Of a DNA stretch of 64,000 nt, positions 7,695 to 12,835 are shown piece after piece; position 1 is the stretch's first letter; the number at the start of each line of letters is the position of its first letter. The stretch covers positions 62,001 to 126,000 of the forward strand of contig JAJDZX010000025.1 of assembly GCA_022824395.1 (NCBI GenBank), given 5' to 3'. Source of the DNA: Alphaproteobacteria bacterium. Lineage in GTDB: Bacteria > Pseudomonadota > Alphaproteobacteria > TMED109. A model generated the notes under the pieces. The model was not told the DNA's origin. It saw only the letters and a program-made list of their open reading frames with translations, and searched no databases. The translations under genes were made by a program, and so were the position numbers.

Positions 7695-8098
7695 CTGCAA
7701 ACGGTGCCAATCAGTTCCGCATGCTTCATACGATGATTCGGGTCCGCGACCTCGAGCGCTCGCTGGCCTTCTACACCGGCAGGCTCGGTATGGAGGTCCT
7801 GCGCAGACAGGACTATCCGAGCGGCCGTTTCACCTTGGCGTTCGTCGGCTATGGCCCCGAGGAGAATCACACGGTCCTGGAGCTCACGCACAACTGGGAT
7901 CAGGACGAAGATTACGCGCAGGGCGATGCCTGGGGACACATCGCGCTCGGAGTCCCGGACATCTACGGAACCTGCGCGCGGCTTGAGGCGGACGGTGTAC
8001 GCATCCCGCGACCGCCCGGACCCATGCAGCACGGAAAGACCGTGATCGCATTCATCGAGGATCCAGACGGTTACAAGATCGAATTGATCCAGCGCTGA
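7691..8098 (+). CDS. gloA: Lactoylglutathione lyase (glyoxalase I)
   Basis: Glyoxalase I converts the hemithioacetal of methylglyoxal and glutathione to S-lactoylglutathione. The 135-residue protein has the family pattern M-L-H-T-M-I-R-V-R-D-L-E-R-S-L-A-F-Y, with the first metal His. The other likely metal ligands are the Glu in V-L-E-L-T, the His in G-H-I-A-L-G-V, and the Glu in the C-terminal Y-K-I-E-L-I. The start is a TTG that overlaps the end of lpxB and has a strong AAGGAG site just upstream. It is the last gene before the transposon, whose left target duplication starts 16 bp after its stop. Confidence 0.93.
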   Translation: MTANGANQFRMLHTMIRVRDLERSLAFYTGRLGMEVLRRQDYPSGRFTLAFVGYGPEENHTVLELTHNWDQDEDYAQGDAWGHIALGVPDIYGTCARLEADGVRIPRPPGPMQHGKTVIAFIEDPDGYKIELIQR

Positions 8099-8113
8099 AT
8101 GTCCGGAGGGGGG

Positions 8114-8121
8114 TTCATTTG
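8114..8121. repeat. Left target site duplication
   Basis: TTCATTTG directly precedes the left terminal repeat and is repeated exactly after the right one. Eight base pairs is the usual IS1595-family duplication length. Confidence 0.93.
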
Positions 8122-8147
8122 GGGGATTATATACGGTAGTGCCCAAA
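8122..8147 (+). repeat. Left terminal inverted repeat
   Basis: This 26-bp repeat reads inward GGGG-ATTATATACGG-TAGTGCCCAAA and matches the right end over its full length in inverted orientation. Read outward it contains TATATA preceded 17 bp earlier by TTCAGT, a weak outward promoter pattern aimed at the 3' end of gloA (antisense). Confidence 0.95.
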
Positions 8148-8163
8148 GAGACTGAACGCCCCG

Positions 8164-8331
8164 TTACTCGGGACGGTCAACAAACCGCACGTTCACGTCA
8201 CGCATGATCGCTTTGGCAACATCGTCCGGCGTGGTTCCCTCGGGAAACTCCAGCGGCTCTTCCATCTCTGCCTTGGTCGGCTGGTAGCGGCTGTTAACCA
8301 GCGTCACTTCGTCTTTGCTTCGTTCGGTCAT
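8164..8331 (-). CDS. Hypothetical 55-aa protein, transposon passenger
   Basis: This is the last gene of the transposon's minus-strand run, 22 bp after the small membrane protein. It has a good ribosome site (GGGAG) about 8 bp before the ATG at 8331. The protein is hydrophilic and acidic, with V-N-S-R-Y-Q-P-T-K-A-E-M-E-E-P and G-T-T-P-D-D-V-A-K-A-I-M, and no membrane segment. I do not recognise the family. An upstream in-frame start would add 16 residues but lacks a better ribosome site. Confidence 0.6.
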   Translation of the reverse strand: MTERSKDEVTLVNSRYQPTKAEMEEPLEFPEGTTPDDVAKAIMRDVNVRFVDRPE

Positions 8332-8353
8332 GATTAGTCTCCCAGATTGACAG

Positions 8354-8497
8354 TTAGCGGCGGCGCCCGCGTCGGCCACCGCCGCCGCTCGTGAATACCC
8401 AATGCGTCACGGCAATCGCAGCCACGATCAGCACGCCCACGATTATCACGCCCGACGCAATGTCGAGGATCTGAATCAGCGCCGGAGTCATGTTCAT
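8354..8497 (-). CDS. Small single-pass membrane protein, 47 aa, transposon passenger
   Basis: The start ATG at 8497 overlaps the stop of the methyltransferase-HNH gene (ATGA), so it is probably made by translational coupling. The peptide has a short N-terminal amphipathic stretch (M-N-M-T-P-A-L-I-Q-I-L-D), one strongly hydrophobic segment of about 20 residues (G-V-I-I-V-G-V-L-I-V-A-A-I-A-V), and a Gly/Arg-rich tail (G-G-G-G-R-R-G-R-R-R). The topology is probably N-out/C-in with the basic tail in the cytoplasm. Function is unknown. The tight coupling to a nuclease-bearing gene suggests it is not spurious. Confidence 0.6.
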   Translation of the reverse strand: MNMTPALIQILDIASGVIIVGVLIVAAIAVTHWVFTSGGGGRRGRRR

Positions 8498-9699
8498 TGC
8501 GCGGCCCTCCATTCGGCCATGGTCTTTGCGCCCTTGCTGCGATTGCAGCCCGAGCACAGCAGTTGCAGGTTGTCGGGATGGTCGGTGCCGCCCTTGGCAC
8601 GGGGCAGGATGTGATCAACGTCCATGACGCGGAACGGGAAGTGCGTATCGCAGCCCGCGCAGACGCCTTCCTGCTCGCCATAGAGCCGGTGCCGGTGCGT
8701 CCGGTAGTTCGGCAGATCACCCAGATCATCGCGCTTGGGCGGCCCGTCAGGCGTGATTGCGCCGCCCCACGGCAGTTGTCCGCGGTCTGTCGCGATCCGC
8801 GCGTCTACCAGCTTCACGGCCAGCGGTGACAGGTCCACGCCTGCCCACTTGCGTTTGAGCCGGTCGGCGGCAACGAGGGCGGTAGCGCATCCACAGAACG
8901 GGTCGAATACCCAATCGCCCTCGTTGGAGCTGGCGCGGATGATGCGATCCAGCAGCGCAAGCGGCTTCTGGGTCGGGTAGCCGGTGCGCTCCTTGGCCGA
9001 TCCGGGAATAACGGGCATCTCCCACACATCTCGCCAAGGCATGCCCTTGGTCGGTTTGTCGACAACCAGCTTGCGGGATTTGGTCTCCGGATCGAGAACC
9101 TGCGTCTTGCCCTTGAAGCGCTTCAAGTAGCTTTCAGACGGCGGCTCGTAATGGACGTTGAACTGCTTCTGTCGGTGGCCGTAGAACAGCAACACGTCGT
9201 GCATTCGCTGAAAGCGGGGTTGTTTGGACGGCCACCGCCGATACGACCAAATGATTTCGTTCTGGAAACTTCTCGTCCCGAAAATGCCATCCATCAGCAA
9301 CTTGAGATAGTGGCTGGCGGTCGGGTCGCAGTGCAAGTAGATGGATCCGCTCGGCTTGAGAATACGCTGCATTTCGGTCAGCCGCACGGCCATGAAGATC
9401 AAATACGACTGCATCCCCTTGCCGTGCGCCTGTCGCGCCGCTTCGATCACCGAATACGCGGCGGGGTTCCGGTCGGCCAGTTCGCCATGCTCATGCACGT
9501 CAACATCGTCTAGCGTCCAGGCATCCTTGAAGGATGCGCCCGCCGCCTGGCTCCCGATCGGGGCCTCGTACGTGCGGTTCGAGTTGAAGGGCGGGTCCAG
9601 GTAGATCAGATCAATGCACGCGCTGTTCATGCCCCGCAGCACGTTCAGGCAGTCGCCGGTCCAGACCGTCTCGTTGGCGAAGTTGGGGCGGGAAGCCAT
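8494..9699 (-). CDS. DNA methyltransferase (DPPF type) fused to C-terminal HNH nuclease domain
   Basis: This 401-residue passenger has an N-terminal amino-methyltransferase of the beta order. The catalytic motif D-P-P-F (residues 35-38) comes before the SAM-binding motif F-D-P-F-C-G-C-A-T (from residue 265), and Y-P-T-Q-K-P lies ahead of the latter. From about residue 340 a second domain begins with a zinc pair C347-x2-C350 and D-V-D-H (His363). It continues with N377 in D-N-L-Q-L-L, then C382-x2-C385-N-R, a complete HNH endonuclease signature. So modification and potential cleavage sit in one chain. It starts with ATG in a TAATG overlap with the gene upstream. The target base (N6-adenine or N4-cytosine) cannot be read from sequence alone. 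Confidence 0.9.
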   Translation of the reverse strand: MASRPNFANETVWTGDCLNVLRGMNSACIDLIYLDPPFNSNRTYEAPIGSQAAGASFKDAWTLDDVDVHEHGELADRNPAAYSVIEAARQAHGKGMQSYLIFMAVRLTEMQRILKPSGSIYLHCDPTASHYLKLLMDGIFGTRSFQNEIIWSYRRWPSKQPRFQRMHDVLLFYGHRQKQFNVHYEPPSESYLKRFKGKTQVLDPETKSRKLVVDKPTKGMPWRDVWEMPVIPGSAKERTGYPTQKPLALLDRIIRASSNEGDWVFDPFCGCATALVAADRLKRKWAGVDLSPLAVKLVDARIATDRGQLPWGGAITPDGPPKRDDLGDLPNYRTHRHRLYGEQEGVCAGCDTHFPFRVMDVDHILPRAKGGTDHPDNLQLLCSGCNRSKGAKTMAEWRAAQ

Positions 9700-9962
9700 T
9701 ATCCGTCAGCAAGCCGCTCGATTTCCCGGTGCCCGGCGGCCGTTATGCGGACTATCCCCACGATCGTCCCTTCCGGCGCGTCAATAAGCGGCTTAGTCTT
9801 GCTCAACACGACAAAGCCATCTTCCTCGCAAAGCCGGAGATGATATTCCACTACTTCCGGATCGAAGTTGTTGAAATGAGGGACCGGTAGCAGTTCCCGG
9901 CAATTCGCGTTGTCGCGGACGAAGATCAGCAGCTTACGTATCAGGTTCCAATCCAGCCTCAT
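9699..9962 (-). CDS. DUF2513-like winged-helix protein, transposon passenger
   Basis: The 87-residue protein begins M-R-L-D-W-N-L-I-R-K-L-L-I-F-V-R, which resembles the start of DUF2513 proteins found in phages and mobile elements. It continues with Y-H-L-R-L-C-E-E-D-G-F-V and ends I-T-A-A-G-H-R-E-I-E-R-L, the pattern of a small winged-helix DNA-binding fold. It is coupled at both ends: its ATG overlaps the transposase stop (ATGA), and its stop overlaps the methyltransferase start (TAATG). A regulatory or accessory role within the element is inferred from position only. Confidence 0.72.
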   Translation of the reverse strand: MRLDWNLIRKLLIFVRDNANCRELLPVPHFNNFDPEVVEYHLRLCEEDGFVVLSKTKPLIDAPEGTIVGIVRITAAGHREIERLADG

Positions 9963-10948
9963 GACCGCGCCCCCGAGGAAAGCCCGTTGTCGGCGATCAG
10001 GTCACGGTAGCGGAGCCGCTTACCGGCCATGTCCGCTGCGATCCCGGCCATTTGGTCGGGGGTGTCCGCTTCACGGATGTTGTGCTTGCCGGCAAACTCA
10101 TCAACGTAGCGTTGCAGGTGCTTCTCACTGATCTTGTGGAACGTGCCGATGCAACCCCGCTTGAACATGCTCCAGAAGGACTCGATCCCGTTGGTGTGCG
10201 CCATGCCGTTCACGTACTCACTGACCGAGTGCTTGACCGATTCGCGGTCGTACCAAGGCTCCAGCGCGTCGTACACGCTCGCTTCGTCGGTGTAGACCTT
10301 GGAACCCGGTTTCGTGTTCTCTGCCACGAAACCGGCGACGTGCACGGTGTCCGTAGCTGCAACGTGACGGGCGCGAACTTCATTGGTCTCCCGGTCCTTC
10401 ACGCCAACGACCGCAGCCTTGCCAACCGCGCCGCGTCCAGTGTCCTTCAACTCCCGACGCTTGGCGTTGCTCATGTTCTTGCGGCGGCCACCAACGTAGG
10501 TTTCGTCCGCCTCTACCGGCCCACCGAACAGCCCGCCCTCGCGCTCGAACGCGGTGCGGATACGGTGCGACAGGTGCCAAGCTGACTTCTGCGTGATCCC
10601 GAGGTCACGGTGCAGCTTCATGCTGGAAACGGACTTCAACGAGGTCAGCGCGAGATAGATGGCTATTGCCCAAGTCTGGTAGCCGAGGTTCGACGCTTCC
10701 ATCACGGTTCCGGTCTTGACCGAGAAACGCTTCCGGCATTCCTTCTCACGGCACCGGTAGGGCATCGTCTTGTGGGATGCGCCGGACAGAACGTTGGTTG
10801 ATCCGCAATGCGGACAATGCGGCTTGCCGTCCTGCCAGCGGTTCTCTGCGAACCATGCTTCGGCGGTCGCGTCGTCCGGGAACCTCCGCATGATCTCAAC
10901 CAGTGAGAGTCCTTTGCGGTGGGATTTACCGGGAGCGTTCTGTGTCAT
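9959..10948 (-). CDS. tnpA: IS1595-family transposase
   Basis: The 329-residue transposase has an N-terminal zinc ribbon (C45-P-H-C48 with C66 and C71), a helical region, and a DDE-type catalytic domain. Likely catalytic residues are D148 in V-E-A-D-E-T-Y-V-G-G, D221 in V-Y-T-D-E-A, and E256 in T-N-G-I-E-S-F-W-S. The frame is intact. It is the first gene of the element's minus-strand operon, downstream of a near-consensus promoter at 10986-11014. The stop overlaps the next gene by 4 bp, so passenger expression depends on transposase translation. Confidence 0.95.
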   Translation of the reverse strand: MTQNAPGKSHRKGLSLVEIMRRFPDDATAEAWFAENRWQDGKPHCPHCGSTNVLSGASHKTMPYRCREKECRKRFSVKTGTVMEASNLGYQTWAIAIYLALTSLKSVSSMKLHRDLGITQKSAWHLSHRIRTAFEREGGLFGGPVEADETYVGGRRKNMSNAKRRELKDTGRGAVGKAAVVGVKDRETNEVRARHVAATDTVHVAGFVAENTKPGSKVYTDEASVYDALEPWYDRESVKHSVSEYVNGMAHTNGIESFWSMFKRGCIGTFHKISEKHLQRYVDEFAGKHNIREADTPDQMAGIAADMAGKRLRYRDLIADNGLSSGARS

Positions 10949-10977
10949 TGCCCTGTCTTTCAGCGGTCCGTCTAACT

Positions 10978-11014
10978 GGCGTTACTATACAATAGTGCCC
11001 AAGGGGAGTCAACG
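10978..11014 (+). repeat. Internal divergent copy of the terminal repeat
   Basis: The segment aligns with the left end (8122-8158) in the same orientation, with 27 of 37 positions identical. The core TATAC-nn-TAGTGCCCAA is fully conserved apart from the two central bases. It lies 30 bp upstream of the transposase start and overlaps its promoter. It could be a transposase-binding site for autoregulation, or the left end of a smaller nested element running to 11445. Confidence 0.8.
10986..11014 (-). promoter_or_regulatory. Predicted sigma-70 promoter of the transposase operon
   Basis: On the minus strand, TTGACT (11009-11014) is followed by a 17-bp spacer and TATAGT (10986-10991), close to the TTGACA/TATAAT consensus. 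The transposase ATG lies 37 bp beyond the -10 box. The spacer and -10 box coincide with the internal terminal-repeat copy. Confidence 0.7.
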
Positions 11015-11049
11015 GTTCGGTGCTGTATGATGGGGCCTAGAACGCACGA

Positions 11050-11112
11050 AAGCCGGGAGTTGGTAGCTCCCGGCTTCCGCGCCCAGCAGTCCTTGTCGAG
11101 GCCGCTGCTGGG
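11050..11112. other. Two consecutive perfect hairpins inside the transposon
   Basis: The first stem is 10 bp (AAGCCGGGAG at 11050-11059 with its complement at 11067-11076, 7-nt loop). The second is 8 bp (CCCAGCAG at 11082-11089 with 11105-11112, 15-nt loop). They sit between the divergent transposase and 75-aa gene. Neither is followed by a clear T-run, so a structured leader or small RNA is as likely as a terminator. Confidence 0.55.
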
Positions 11113-11185
11113 AAAGTGCTAGCGCGACTAACCTAGTCCGTGCGGCATTTTCGGTCAATCGGCCTCTTGCTTCAAGAGAGGTCGC

Positions 11186-11413
11186 ATGACCCCAGAAACT
11201 CTGCTGAATCGCATCGCTGACAAACTGACACGTGGCCCCGTTGACGCTGGCGAGTTGGTCGCGTCGTACTACCCCCATGACATGGAAGCGGGTGCGCTAG
11301 TCGAGCGCGTCTTTCGTGCCGGACTGGTCCGCGGATCACTGCGGTACACGCATTTTGACTGCGAAGGGACGATCACCGGCATTGCCGACAACACCCGCCC
11401 GGTCTGGCACTAA
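11186..11413 (+). CDS. Hypothetical 75-aa protein at the right end of the transposon
   Basis: It is divergent from the transposase and ends 6 bp before the right terminal repeat. A ribosome site (AGAGAGG) lies about 6 bp before the ATG. The predicted protein is mostly helical, then has a short beta-rich end: A-L-V-E-R-V-F-R-A-G-L-V-R-G-S-L-R-Y-T-H, then G-T-I-T-G-I. That could be a compact winged helix, though this is a guess from composition. No family is recognised. A longer opposite-strand frame overlaps it but looks like a shadow. Confidence 0.55.
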   Translation: MTPETLLNRIADKLTRGPVDAGELVASYYPHDMEAGALVERVFRAGLVRGSLRYTHFDCEGTITGIADNTRPVWH

Positions 11414-11419
11414 CGCGGG

Positions 11420-11445
11420 TTTGGGCACTACCGTATATAATCCCC
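11420..11445 (-). repeat. Right terminal inverted repeat
   Basis: Exact 26-bp inverted copy of the left end. Reading toward gltA it contains TATAAT at 11436-11441, a perfect -10 box, but no good -35 box lies 17 bp upstream in the element. Confidence 0.95.
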
Positions 11446-11453
11446 TTCATTTG
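11446..11453. repeat. Right target site duplication
   Basis: TTCATTTG, identical to 8114-8121. Removing the transposon and one copy would leave about 113 bp between gloA and gltA. Confidence 0.93.
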
Positions 11454-11527
11454 CCCCTGTCAGGGGGGCTAGGTACCGTACCGGCGCATTCTGGTTTGCT
11501 GATCGCTCGGACCCGAGAGAGAGACTC

Positions 11528-12835
11528 ATGGCCATGGATACAGAACGACGGATAGCGCAACTGACGCTTAGTGACGGCCGGACTTTTCAGATGCCGGAGT
11601 TATCGGGCACGATCGGCCCCGACGTGGTTGACGTGCGTGCGCTCTACCGGGATGCCGGCGTATTTACGTACGACCCTGGCTACACCTCGACCGGATCGTG
11701 TGAATCGCGAATCACGTATATCGACGGCGAGCAGGGCATCCTGCTGCACCGGGGCTACCGCATCGAGGATCTGGCCCAGAACTGTGATTTCCTGGAGGTC
11801 GCATACCTGCTGTTGCGCGGTGAATTGCCGGACGCAGAAAGCAACCAGGAGTTCGCTTACACCATCAGCCGGCACACGATGCTGCACGAGCAGTTGAGCT
11901 ATCTCTTCCGGGGATTCAGGCGCGATGCCCATGCCATGGCGATCTTGTGCGGCGTGGTCGGAGCGCTGTCGGCTTTCTATCACGACAGCACGGACATCAC
12001 CGATCCGCACCAGCGGATGGTCGCGTCCCATCGTCTGATCGCGAAGATCCCGACGATCGCGACGATGGCCTACAAGTATTCGATTGGGCAGCCGTTCATC
12101 TATCCGCGCAACGATCTCGATTACGCGGAGAATTTCCTGCACATGATGTTTGCCGTACCGGCCGAAGAGTACGTAATCAGTGACGTGCTGGCGCGGGCGA
12201 TGAACCGCATCCTGATCCTGCATGCCGACCACGAACAGAACGCCTCGACGTCGACCGTCCGGCTGGCGGGATCGTCAGGCGCGAATCCGTTCGCCTGCGT
12301 GGCGGCTGGGATCGCGTCACTGTGGGGGCCGGCGCACGGGGGCGCCAACGAGGCGGTGATCAACATGCTTCAGGAAATCGGGGACGTATCACGGGTGAAG
12401 TCGTTCATCGACCGCGCCCGCGACCCGGCCGATCCGTTTCGCCTGATGGGCTTCGGACACCGTGTCTACAAGAACTACGATCCCCGCGCCCGCGTCATGC
12501 AGTCGACCGCCCACGAAGTGCTCGGGGCGCTGGGGAAGGAGAACGAACCCATGTTCCGGCTGGCCAGGGAGCTGGAGCGCATCGCCCTGGAAGATGACTA
12601 TTTCATCGAGAAGAAGTTGTATCCCAATGTTGACTTCTATTCGGGCATTACGCTACAAGCTATTGGATTTCCAGCCAATTTGTTCACAGTTCTGTTTGCG
12701 GTCGCGCGGACGGTCGGCTGGGTCGCGCAGTGGAATGAAATGATCGAAGATCCCGCCCAGCGGATCGGGCGTCCGCGCCAGCTGTACACCGGCGTGGGCG
12801 AGCGCCCGTTTGTCTCCATCGAGGACCGCGCCTGA
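11528..12835 (+). CDS. gltA: Citrate synthase
   Basis: The 435-residue hexameric-type (type II) citrate synthase condenses acetyl-CoA and oxaloacetate at the entry to the TCA cycle. Catalytic residues are in place: His270 in G-P-A-H-G-G-A-N, His311 in G-F-G-H-R-V-Y-K, and Asp369 in N-V-D-F-Y-S-G. The N-terminal beta domain reads [18 protein letters not shown] stretch precedes the ATG. The transposon right end lies 82 bp upstream, so the original promoter may have been altered. Confidence 0.97.

Follow-up and report, generated by a model that had tools for sequence, protein, structure and literature searches.

Insertion sequences (IS) of the IS1595 family typically end in GGG-type inverted repeats and generate an 8-bp target duplication. 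Members with passenger genes are known as 'transporter IS' (Siguier, Gagnevin and Chandler 2009, as cited in the available text of PMC3129680), and restriction-modification (R-M) gene complexes have been described, in the available text of PMC3031569, as flanked by IS copies or contained in transposon-like structures. Here we analyse a 64,000-nucleotide stretch of an alphaproteobacterial draft genome (GTDB lineage TMED109; assembly GCA_022824395.1, contig JAJDZX010000025.1, positions 62,001 to 126,000 of the forward strand; hereafter the window), of which nucleotides 8122-11445 form an intact IS1595-type transposon with a methyltransferase-HNH gene in the row behind its transposase. Based on a comparison with related elements, this transposon is probably a copy of a widespread IS1595-type family that has R-M systems as a favoured cargo, represented in the window by what would be a single-chain methylase-nuclease.

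The element and its insertion site

A reading of this DNA made from the sequence alone had claimed perfect 26-bp ends and a perfect 8-bp duplication for the element, and both claims were confirmed (26/26 and 8/8 positions). The terminal inverted repeats are of the GGG type, which together with the 8-bp duplication places the window element in the IS1595 family, as do the two domain matches of its transposase (DDE_Tnp_IS1595 and the zinc ribbon), both of which exceed their curated cut-offs. Genes that do not serve transposition lie between the ends of this otherwise normal IS, as in the transporter IS. The empty site, which the sequence-only reading had proposed to look for in relatives, was found in 6/6 congeneric genomes; because their flanks are contiguous over one target copy (with one base changed there in one genome), the window insertion was evidently precise. 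The full element has one match in its own 3.75-Mb draft genome, and two other transposase copies in that genome are 62% and 56% identical to the window transposase. Another IS1595 copy in this genome (L188, L218; G000:C131), the ends of which were not found, is ~1.4 kb away from a gene for an N6_N4 methyltransferase.

Behind the transposase, a DUF2513 gene, the methyltransferase-HNH gene and a gene for a 47-aa peptide follow on the same strand (Table 1). Direct reading of the sequence confirmed their stop-to-start junctions (ATGA, TAATG and ATGA), with the DUF2513 start overlapping the transposase stop and the DUF2513 stop overlapping the methyltransferase start. The identities proposed for the transposase, the DUF2513 protein and the methyltransferase-HNH fusion were borne out by Pfam matches, but a 55-aa gene near the far end, the product of which we call SP55, and an open reading frame (ORF) on the opposite strand had been overlooked. 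DUF2513-related genes in two other loci (L036 and L070) stand divergent from the transposase.

Restriction-modification genes recur as cargo of the family

The first sample of relatives consisted of the best 80 of 224 transposase relatives in genome contigs and three loci of the window's own genome; matching ends with a target duplication were found in 49 of these 83 loci. A second set of 40 regions, taken from congeners as well as from 289 broadly spread same-class genomes, provided 20 further complete elements. L068 and L039 had been set aside from the complete set by hand; removal of near-duplicates (L016, L041, L042, L178 and L187, the last holding the same element as L073) left a non-redundant set of 64 complete elements, 1.27-4.87 kb in length (median 3.0 kb), most ends of which resemble variants of GGGRATTATATAC. 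All 80 relatives are titled metagenome-assembled genomes (MAGs) and are named as Alpha- and Gammaproteobacteria, Burkholderiales, Acidobacteria, Nitrospinae, Chloroflexi, Bacteroidota, Truepera, Acidimicrobiia and Gemmatimonadetes; many of their bin names probably come from marine-sponge studies.

R-M genes were present in 30 of the 64 complete elements. Pfam searches of all 30 returned R-M domains in 28 (a methyltransferase in 27 and HNH only in L075), while L022 and L076, without a Pfam match, owe their R-M status to similarity to L034, the cargo of which matches N6_N4_Mtase and a PADLOC type II restriction model. The resulting counts, 29 methyltransferase carriers and 30 carriers of any R-M gene, become 27 and 28 if L022 and L076 are left out. 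They include L059, which has a C5 methylase, and exclude L028, where the match was judged to be a shifted transposase frame detected via a model from the over-long L074 ORF (the own methyltransferase of L074 is confirmed by Pfam); a single-linkage cluster, C1, in which methyltransferases were mixed with another protein, was also left out.

The cargo systems are varied. An N6_N4 methylase-HNH fusion occurs in L001, L010, L023, L029, L051, L072, L078, L079, L186, L200, L205 and L207, and an N6_N4 methylase-Mrr_cat fusion in L020 and L057 (above the cut-off) and L067 (below it). Other elements combine an MT-A70 methyltransferase with a BglII nuclease (L014), a D12 methylase with NotI (L071, L184), or a C5 methylase with either HindVP (L059) or GIY-YIG (L036, L080, L203), and an N6_Mtase is found with type I specificity or HSDR_N domains in L062, L208 and L210. 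Among loci for which ends were not found, the N6_N4 methylase is fused to T5orf172 (L061), paired with EcoO109I (L035) or with a PADLOC type II restriction enzyme (L021), or present with HNH as two genes (L198); L019 and L087 have Eco29kI-type nucleases, and L215 has D12 and SacI next to a truncated transposase. The methyltransferase gene comes first and the nuclease gene second in the two-gene systems of L014, L021, L035, L036, L059, L071, L080, L184, L198, L203 and L215.

Methyltransferase genes are roughly 100 times denser in the cargo than in the flanks (28 in 136 kb vs. 1 in 470 kb with 463 flank ORFs of at least 100 aa), a figure that is partly circular as its models were built from the cargo itself, and for which the L028 match was removed and L059 was not counted. 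A count that does not depend on these models, that of PF01555 across the 3.75-Mb host genome, gave 6 matches. When viral contigs (IMG/VR) were searched with the transposase, four of five related loci had a Pfam methyltransferase behind the transposase (L230, L231, L232 and L234, the transposase match of the last containing a gap), and no R-M gene was seen in the fifth, L233. Two of the methyltransferase-carrying loci are complete elements with matching ends and duplications. R-M-carrying IS1595 elements in predicted viral contigs are possible vehicles between hosts.

The class of cargo does not follow transposase kinship: the nearest-transposase neighbour carries the same R-M class in only 4 of the 30 R-M elements, and L022 and L023, with transposases 80% identical, differ in cargo. 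This independence, together with the 34 of 64 elements that have other or no recognised cargo, would be expected if the clade had a general capacity to accept whatever gene arrives at the transposase stop, the frequency of R-M genes there simply reflecting how common they are among mobile genes. We regard this explanation as possible but doubtful, considering the methyltransferase density of the cargo relative to the flanks, even with models that are not independent, and the repetition of the same cargo class in 4/5 of the viral-contig loci.

The exact gene set of the window as a conserved module was ruled out by the comparison of elements. The sequence-only reading had proposed that this set is a functional module and not chance cargo; that the cargo is functional is supported by purifying selection on the methyltransferase-HNH gene (see below) and by the recurrence of R-M genes at this place, but the claim for this particular set did not survive, as related transposases are accompanied in the same place by genes that are unrelated in sequence. 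Passenger frames are not mostly broken in the aligned copies, but in the loci of one genome (L039-L042 and L047) the methyltransferase-HNH gene is reduced to deletion remnants, with the transposase and SP55 kept; L039 and L047 also hold an apparent insertion, presumably of the IS66 type.

Cargo of other kinds was also found: L041 carries a PIN-domain gene together with a partner gene, and L033 a SocA/Panacea antitoxin-like gene. As judged by eye, lipoprotein-like cargo is present in L025, L028, L037, L189, L194, L195 and L209, in several cases with a glycine-rich N-terminus and in most cases encoded opposite to the transposase. A second small protein that recurs as cargo, of ~130-160 aa and with a WVxxRAxC-like motif near its start, was noted in L020, L070, L072, L073, L079, L177, L180, L200 and L205; it often adjoins the transposase or the methyltransferase, and the L180 member has no Pfam family. 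On the Methylobacterium oryzae plasmid pMOC1, a distant IS1595 element with a perfect 8-bp duplication (L225, 693-4105) carries a hypothetical gene, a VapC toxin gene and a gene for a 62-aa charged protein, and the gene preceding that for VapC resembles, by eye, the partner gene of L041. With this locus the cargo theme reaches a named organism. Comparable cargo was absent from three other plasmid loci that were examined.

The methyltransferase-HNH enzyme

The window enzyme resembles type II R-M methyltransferases in its PF01555 domain, in its match to the PADLOC model MTase_II (E 1.6e-68) and in its fold, the structure model matching CcrM, MboIIA, M.BceJIV and RsrI. The order along the protein is DPPF motif, recognition region, SAM-binding (S-adenosylmethionine-binding) motif and HNH. 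The nearest relative, L186, belongs to a congener; it is located in a different element, where its orientation is opposite to that of the transposase. The nucleotide match between the two ends at gene base 423 and resumes at 706, and protein identity is 25-30% in residues 161-240 and 52% in residues 121-160 vs. 82-100% in the other bins. L205 and L207, from one genome, differ likewise, with a synonymous divergence (dS) of ~0.08 on both sides of the recognition region and >1 inside it. These patterns point to a putative target-recognition region that was swapped between copies (L001/L186 and L205/L207).

Outside this region the gene is under purifying selection. The ratio of non-synonymous to synonymous divergence (dN/dS) relative to L186 is 0.09 and 0.05 on either side of the recognition region, the HNH part shows 0 non-synonymous differences over 71 codons at a dS of 0.3, and comparison with L023, L045 and L051 gave 0.06-0.13 where computable. 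The HNH domain is present and conserved in the window enzyme, with separate restriction enzymes only in sister elements, and one methyltransferase core bears HNH, Mrr_cat or T5orf172 in different loci. The simplest reading of these sequences is a single-chain R-M enzyme whose recognition and nuclease parts can be exchanged and which would both methylate and cleave.

Alternatively, the protein could be an orphan epigenetic enzyme that methylates, e.g., the transposon ends or the transposase promoter and in this way times transposition, the HNH domain being vestigial or structural. The single chain, with no separate restriction gene, would fit such a role, as would an internal copy of the element end that overlaps a promoter-like site (see below), and control of transposition by Dam is described for other IS families in the available text of PMC9296519. 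We nevertheless find this unlikely, given the complete lack of non-synonymous differences in HNH relative to L186, the replacement of the nuclease part by Mrr-like or GIY-YIG domains with the core retained, and the two-gene systems with named restriction enzymes that sister elements carry in the same slot. Further, the HNH domain resembles by sequence those of a Cas9, a group II intron maturase and McrA, which might indicate a homing-type or target-site nuclease that aids insertion and plays no part in restriction. Such a function is highly improbable: the elements insert at diverse 8-mers, the DDE transposase accounts for insertion, and 8-bp duplications are seen in elements that lack HNH as well.

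A model of R-M systems as transposon cargo

Cumulatively, our findings suggest that IS1595-type elements spread and keep themselves by shipping R-M systems. In the window element, the methyltransferase-HNH enzyme would methylate a short site via its swappable recognition region and cut the unmethylated site via HNH; as for other R-M systems, this cargo would make the transposon costly to lose and would defend the cell, so that the element persists after insertion. With the methyltransferase read from the transposase message, protection would set in directly upon expression of the element in a new cell. Addiction and defence by R-M seem more likely than protection or marking of the element, the functions suggested by the sequence-only reading.

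Several observations weigh against this interpretation. The first sample consists of top relatives of one transposase, all of them MAGs, and mobile contigs can be mis-binned. No R-M gene was recognised in 34/64 complete elements, and some of the non-R-M elements that were read carry lipoprotein-like, PIN-domain or unknown genes; only 20/64 couple a gene to the transposase stop. The methyltransferase lies on the strand opposite to the transposase in L072 and L186, and in L019 the Eco29kI-type gene lies on the strand opposite to its methyltransferase. The AlphaFold model of the window enzyme is moderate (mean pLDDT, the predicted local distance difference test, of 71) and weak around the recognition region and HNH, and relative to the more distant L205 the dN/dS values rise to 0.20, 0.32 and 0.52, the last for HNH. 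Finally, HNH domains also occur in non-restriction enzymes, and cleavage, methylation and addiction are predictions.

Coupling to the transposase stop

The transposase stop lies in an ATGA or GTGA context in 23 of the 64 elements, and 18 of these 23 sites open an ORF of at least 60 aa vs. 187/588 such sites elsewhere in the elements. Often, the cargo thus begins in an overlap of 4 bases with the transposase stop. With coupling defined by script as a start within -8 to +2 of the transposase stop (a definition that missed L208, although an overlap is visible there), it was found in 14/30 R-M elements vs. 6/34 others (Fisher p = 0.016). The coupled gene is not always the methyltransferase: it encodes the DUF2513 protein in the window and a 141-aa protein in L200 and L205. 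Coupling to the transposase stop is therefore common, not universal, in the family.

The small protein SP55/C3

SP55 or its variant C3 was detected in 52/64 complete elements, on the transposase strand in 50 and ending no more than 75 nt from the far end in 30. The SP55/C3 models were trained on the first sample; in the second, 10 of 18 complete elements had a match, not counting a weak extra one in L203. Among the 289 same-class genomes, SP55 was found in 9 and a transposase of the clade (E <=1e-60) in 11, with both in 8 (Fisher p = 1.3e-12); in the ninth SP55 genome (G286), SP55 lies beside a truncated transposase. C3 was found in 3/289, all with the transposase. As a control, 470 kb of flank comprising 8,418 small frames was searched and gave 1 SP55 match, located in L044, the flank of which holds further transposase copies.

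SP55 as cargo was ruled out: it accompanies 25/30 R-M and 27/34 other elements, and in L055, the smallest complete element (1,267 bp), only the transposase and SP55 were seen. We therefore take SP55/C3 as a core part of these transposons, whatever their cargo, its role being most likely that of an accessory of transposition or of its control. The window member had no Pfam match above the cut-off (TGS reached 17.3 bits vs. 22.2), 40 members showed no consistent NCBIfam family (four families match one member each, best E 0.02), a fold search against the PDB gave no match below E 4.4 and a plasmid search with an SP55-like sequence gave no match. The AlphaFold model is a small strand-helix-strand shape (pLDDT 84).

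An internal element end at a promoter-like site

Directly 5' of the transposase gene, the element end is repeated in an internal copy that overlaps a promoter-like site (Table 1). The latter is not significant, since 0.8 such sites are expected by shuffling. The overlap could suggest control of the operon by the transposase, an idea that is speculative because the site is at chance level and a comparable copy near the transposase exists in only one of 17 other elements. Internal ends as general operators were ruled out, as among these 17 other long-leader elements only L032 exceeds the shuffle maximum near the transposase (18 vs. 17). In L180 an internal end exceeds it as well (19 vs. 16), but 346 bp away, and in L015, L025 and L036 only the inner half was recognised by eye. 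From the internal end to the right end (10978-11445), the segment around the 75-aa ORF is laid out like a small unit with an end on either side, which gives the impression of a fusion of two units. No Rfam match for an RNA element was found across 8000-11600.

A broader and more tentative proposal, which we think could be correct but would not favour, is that these elements form a distinct lineage that extends across many bacterial phyla and into predicted viruses, with the transposase and SP55/C3 as core, the transposase stop as a loading site for R-M or toxin-antitoxin modules and a gene row controlled by the transposase. The transposase may then bind the element-end sequence at its own promoter and control the whole row, giving a burst of methyltransferase, nuclease and transposase upon entry into a new cell and repression later, and R-M specificity would be both carried and diversified by transposition.

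Table 1. Features of the IS1595-type element in the window
Feature	Coordinates	Strand	Evidence and remarks
Target-site duplication, left copy TTCATTTG	8114-8121		8/8 identical to 11446-11453; single copy in congeners' empty site
Terminal inverted repeat, left	8122-8147		26/26 vs. right end
SP55, 55-aa small protein	8164-8331	-	adjoins far end; small-protein family found across the transposon family
47-aa peptide with hydrophobic stretch	8354-8497	-	start overlaps methyltransferase stop (ATGA); no reliable family (Pfam)
DNA methyltransferase with C-terminal HNH domain, 401 aa	8494-9699	-	N6_N4_Mtase (PF01555) E 2.5e-43; HNH_5 E 2.4e-12
HNH domain, residues 347-396	8512-8661	-	Pfam HNH_5
Putative target-recognition region, ~residues 142-235, apparently swapped between copies	8995-9276	-	alignment to L186 copy
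DUF2513 protein, 87 aa	9699-9962	-	Pfam PF10711 E 4.2e-11
IS1595-family transposase, 329 aa, first gene of the row	9959-10948	-	Pfam PF12762 DDE_Tnp_IS1595 E 3.8e-40; PF12760 Zn_ribbon_IS1595 E 3.5e-6
Internal copy of element end, just upstream of transposase	10978-11003		19/26 vs. right end; shuffle maximum 16
Promoter-like site TTGACT-17-TATAGT upstream of transposase	10984-11012	-	only such site in 8050-11500; 0.8 expected by shuffling
ORF, 75 aa	11186-11413	+ (opposite strand)	no Pfam family
Terminal inverted repeat, right	11420-11445		26/26 vs. left end
Target-site duplication, right copy TTCATTTG	11446-11453		8/8 identical to 8114-8121

Comparison with known systems

The available text of PMC5099237 reports an enrichment of R-M systems in sponge metagenomes, in which type II is the largest group, and a high prevalence of transposases across sponge microbiomes. 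Should many of the relatives indeed be sponge-derived, a compact transposon that ships exchangeable R-M systems would join these two features and link transposon success to genome methylation. The elements also offer a natural series, in which three types of nuclease and many recognition regions are combined with one methyltransferase core, and they bring to light a family of small proteins that accompanies the transposons and has no Pfam or NCBIfam entry.

Typical type IIG enzymes join a PD-(D/E)XK nuclease to an N6_Mtase-type (gamma) methyltransferase. The window enzyme is like them in having methyltransferase and nuclease in one polypeptide and differs in its domains, N6_N4_Mtase followed by HNH instead of N6_Mtase with PD-(D/E)XK; the N6_Mtase-type enzymes of L062, L208, L210 and L231 are closer to type IIG. 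A methyltransferase-HNH protein of Marinitoga phage MPV1 is 33.8% identical over 96% of the query and spans both parts (query residues 6-390), but sits in a phage record.

R-M systems as recurrent IS1595 cargo, and the small protein with them, look new relative to the literature searched, which excluded the primary 2009 IS1595 paper and ISfinder. The family shares with IS1595 and its transporter IS the transposase domain, the zinc ribbon, GGG-ended inverted repeats, the 8-bp duplication and the presence of passenger genes; in the present set, R-M genes are carried by nearly half of the complete elements, and a small protein lacking a Pfam or NCBIfam entry is encoded in most. Like the IS-linked R-M complexes in the available text of PMC3031569, the present elements link R-M to IS mobility, so that R-M system and mobile element may aid each other; those complexes are composite or co-integrated, whereas here the R-M genes lie inside one IS, behind the transposase, and belong to many unrelated classes.

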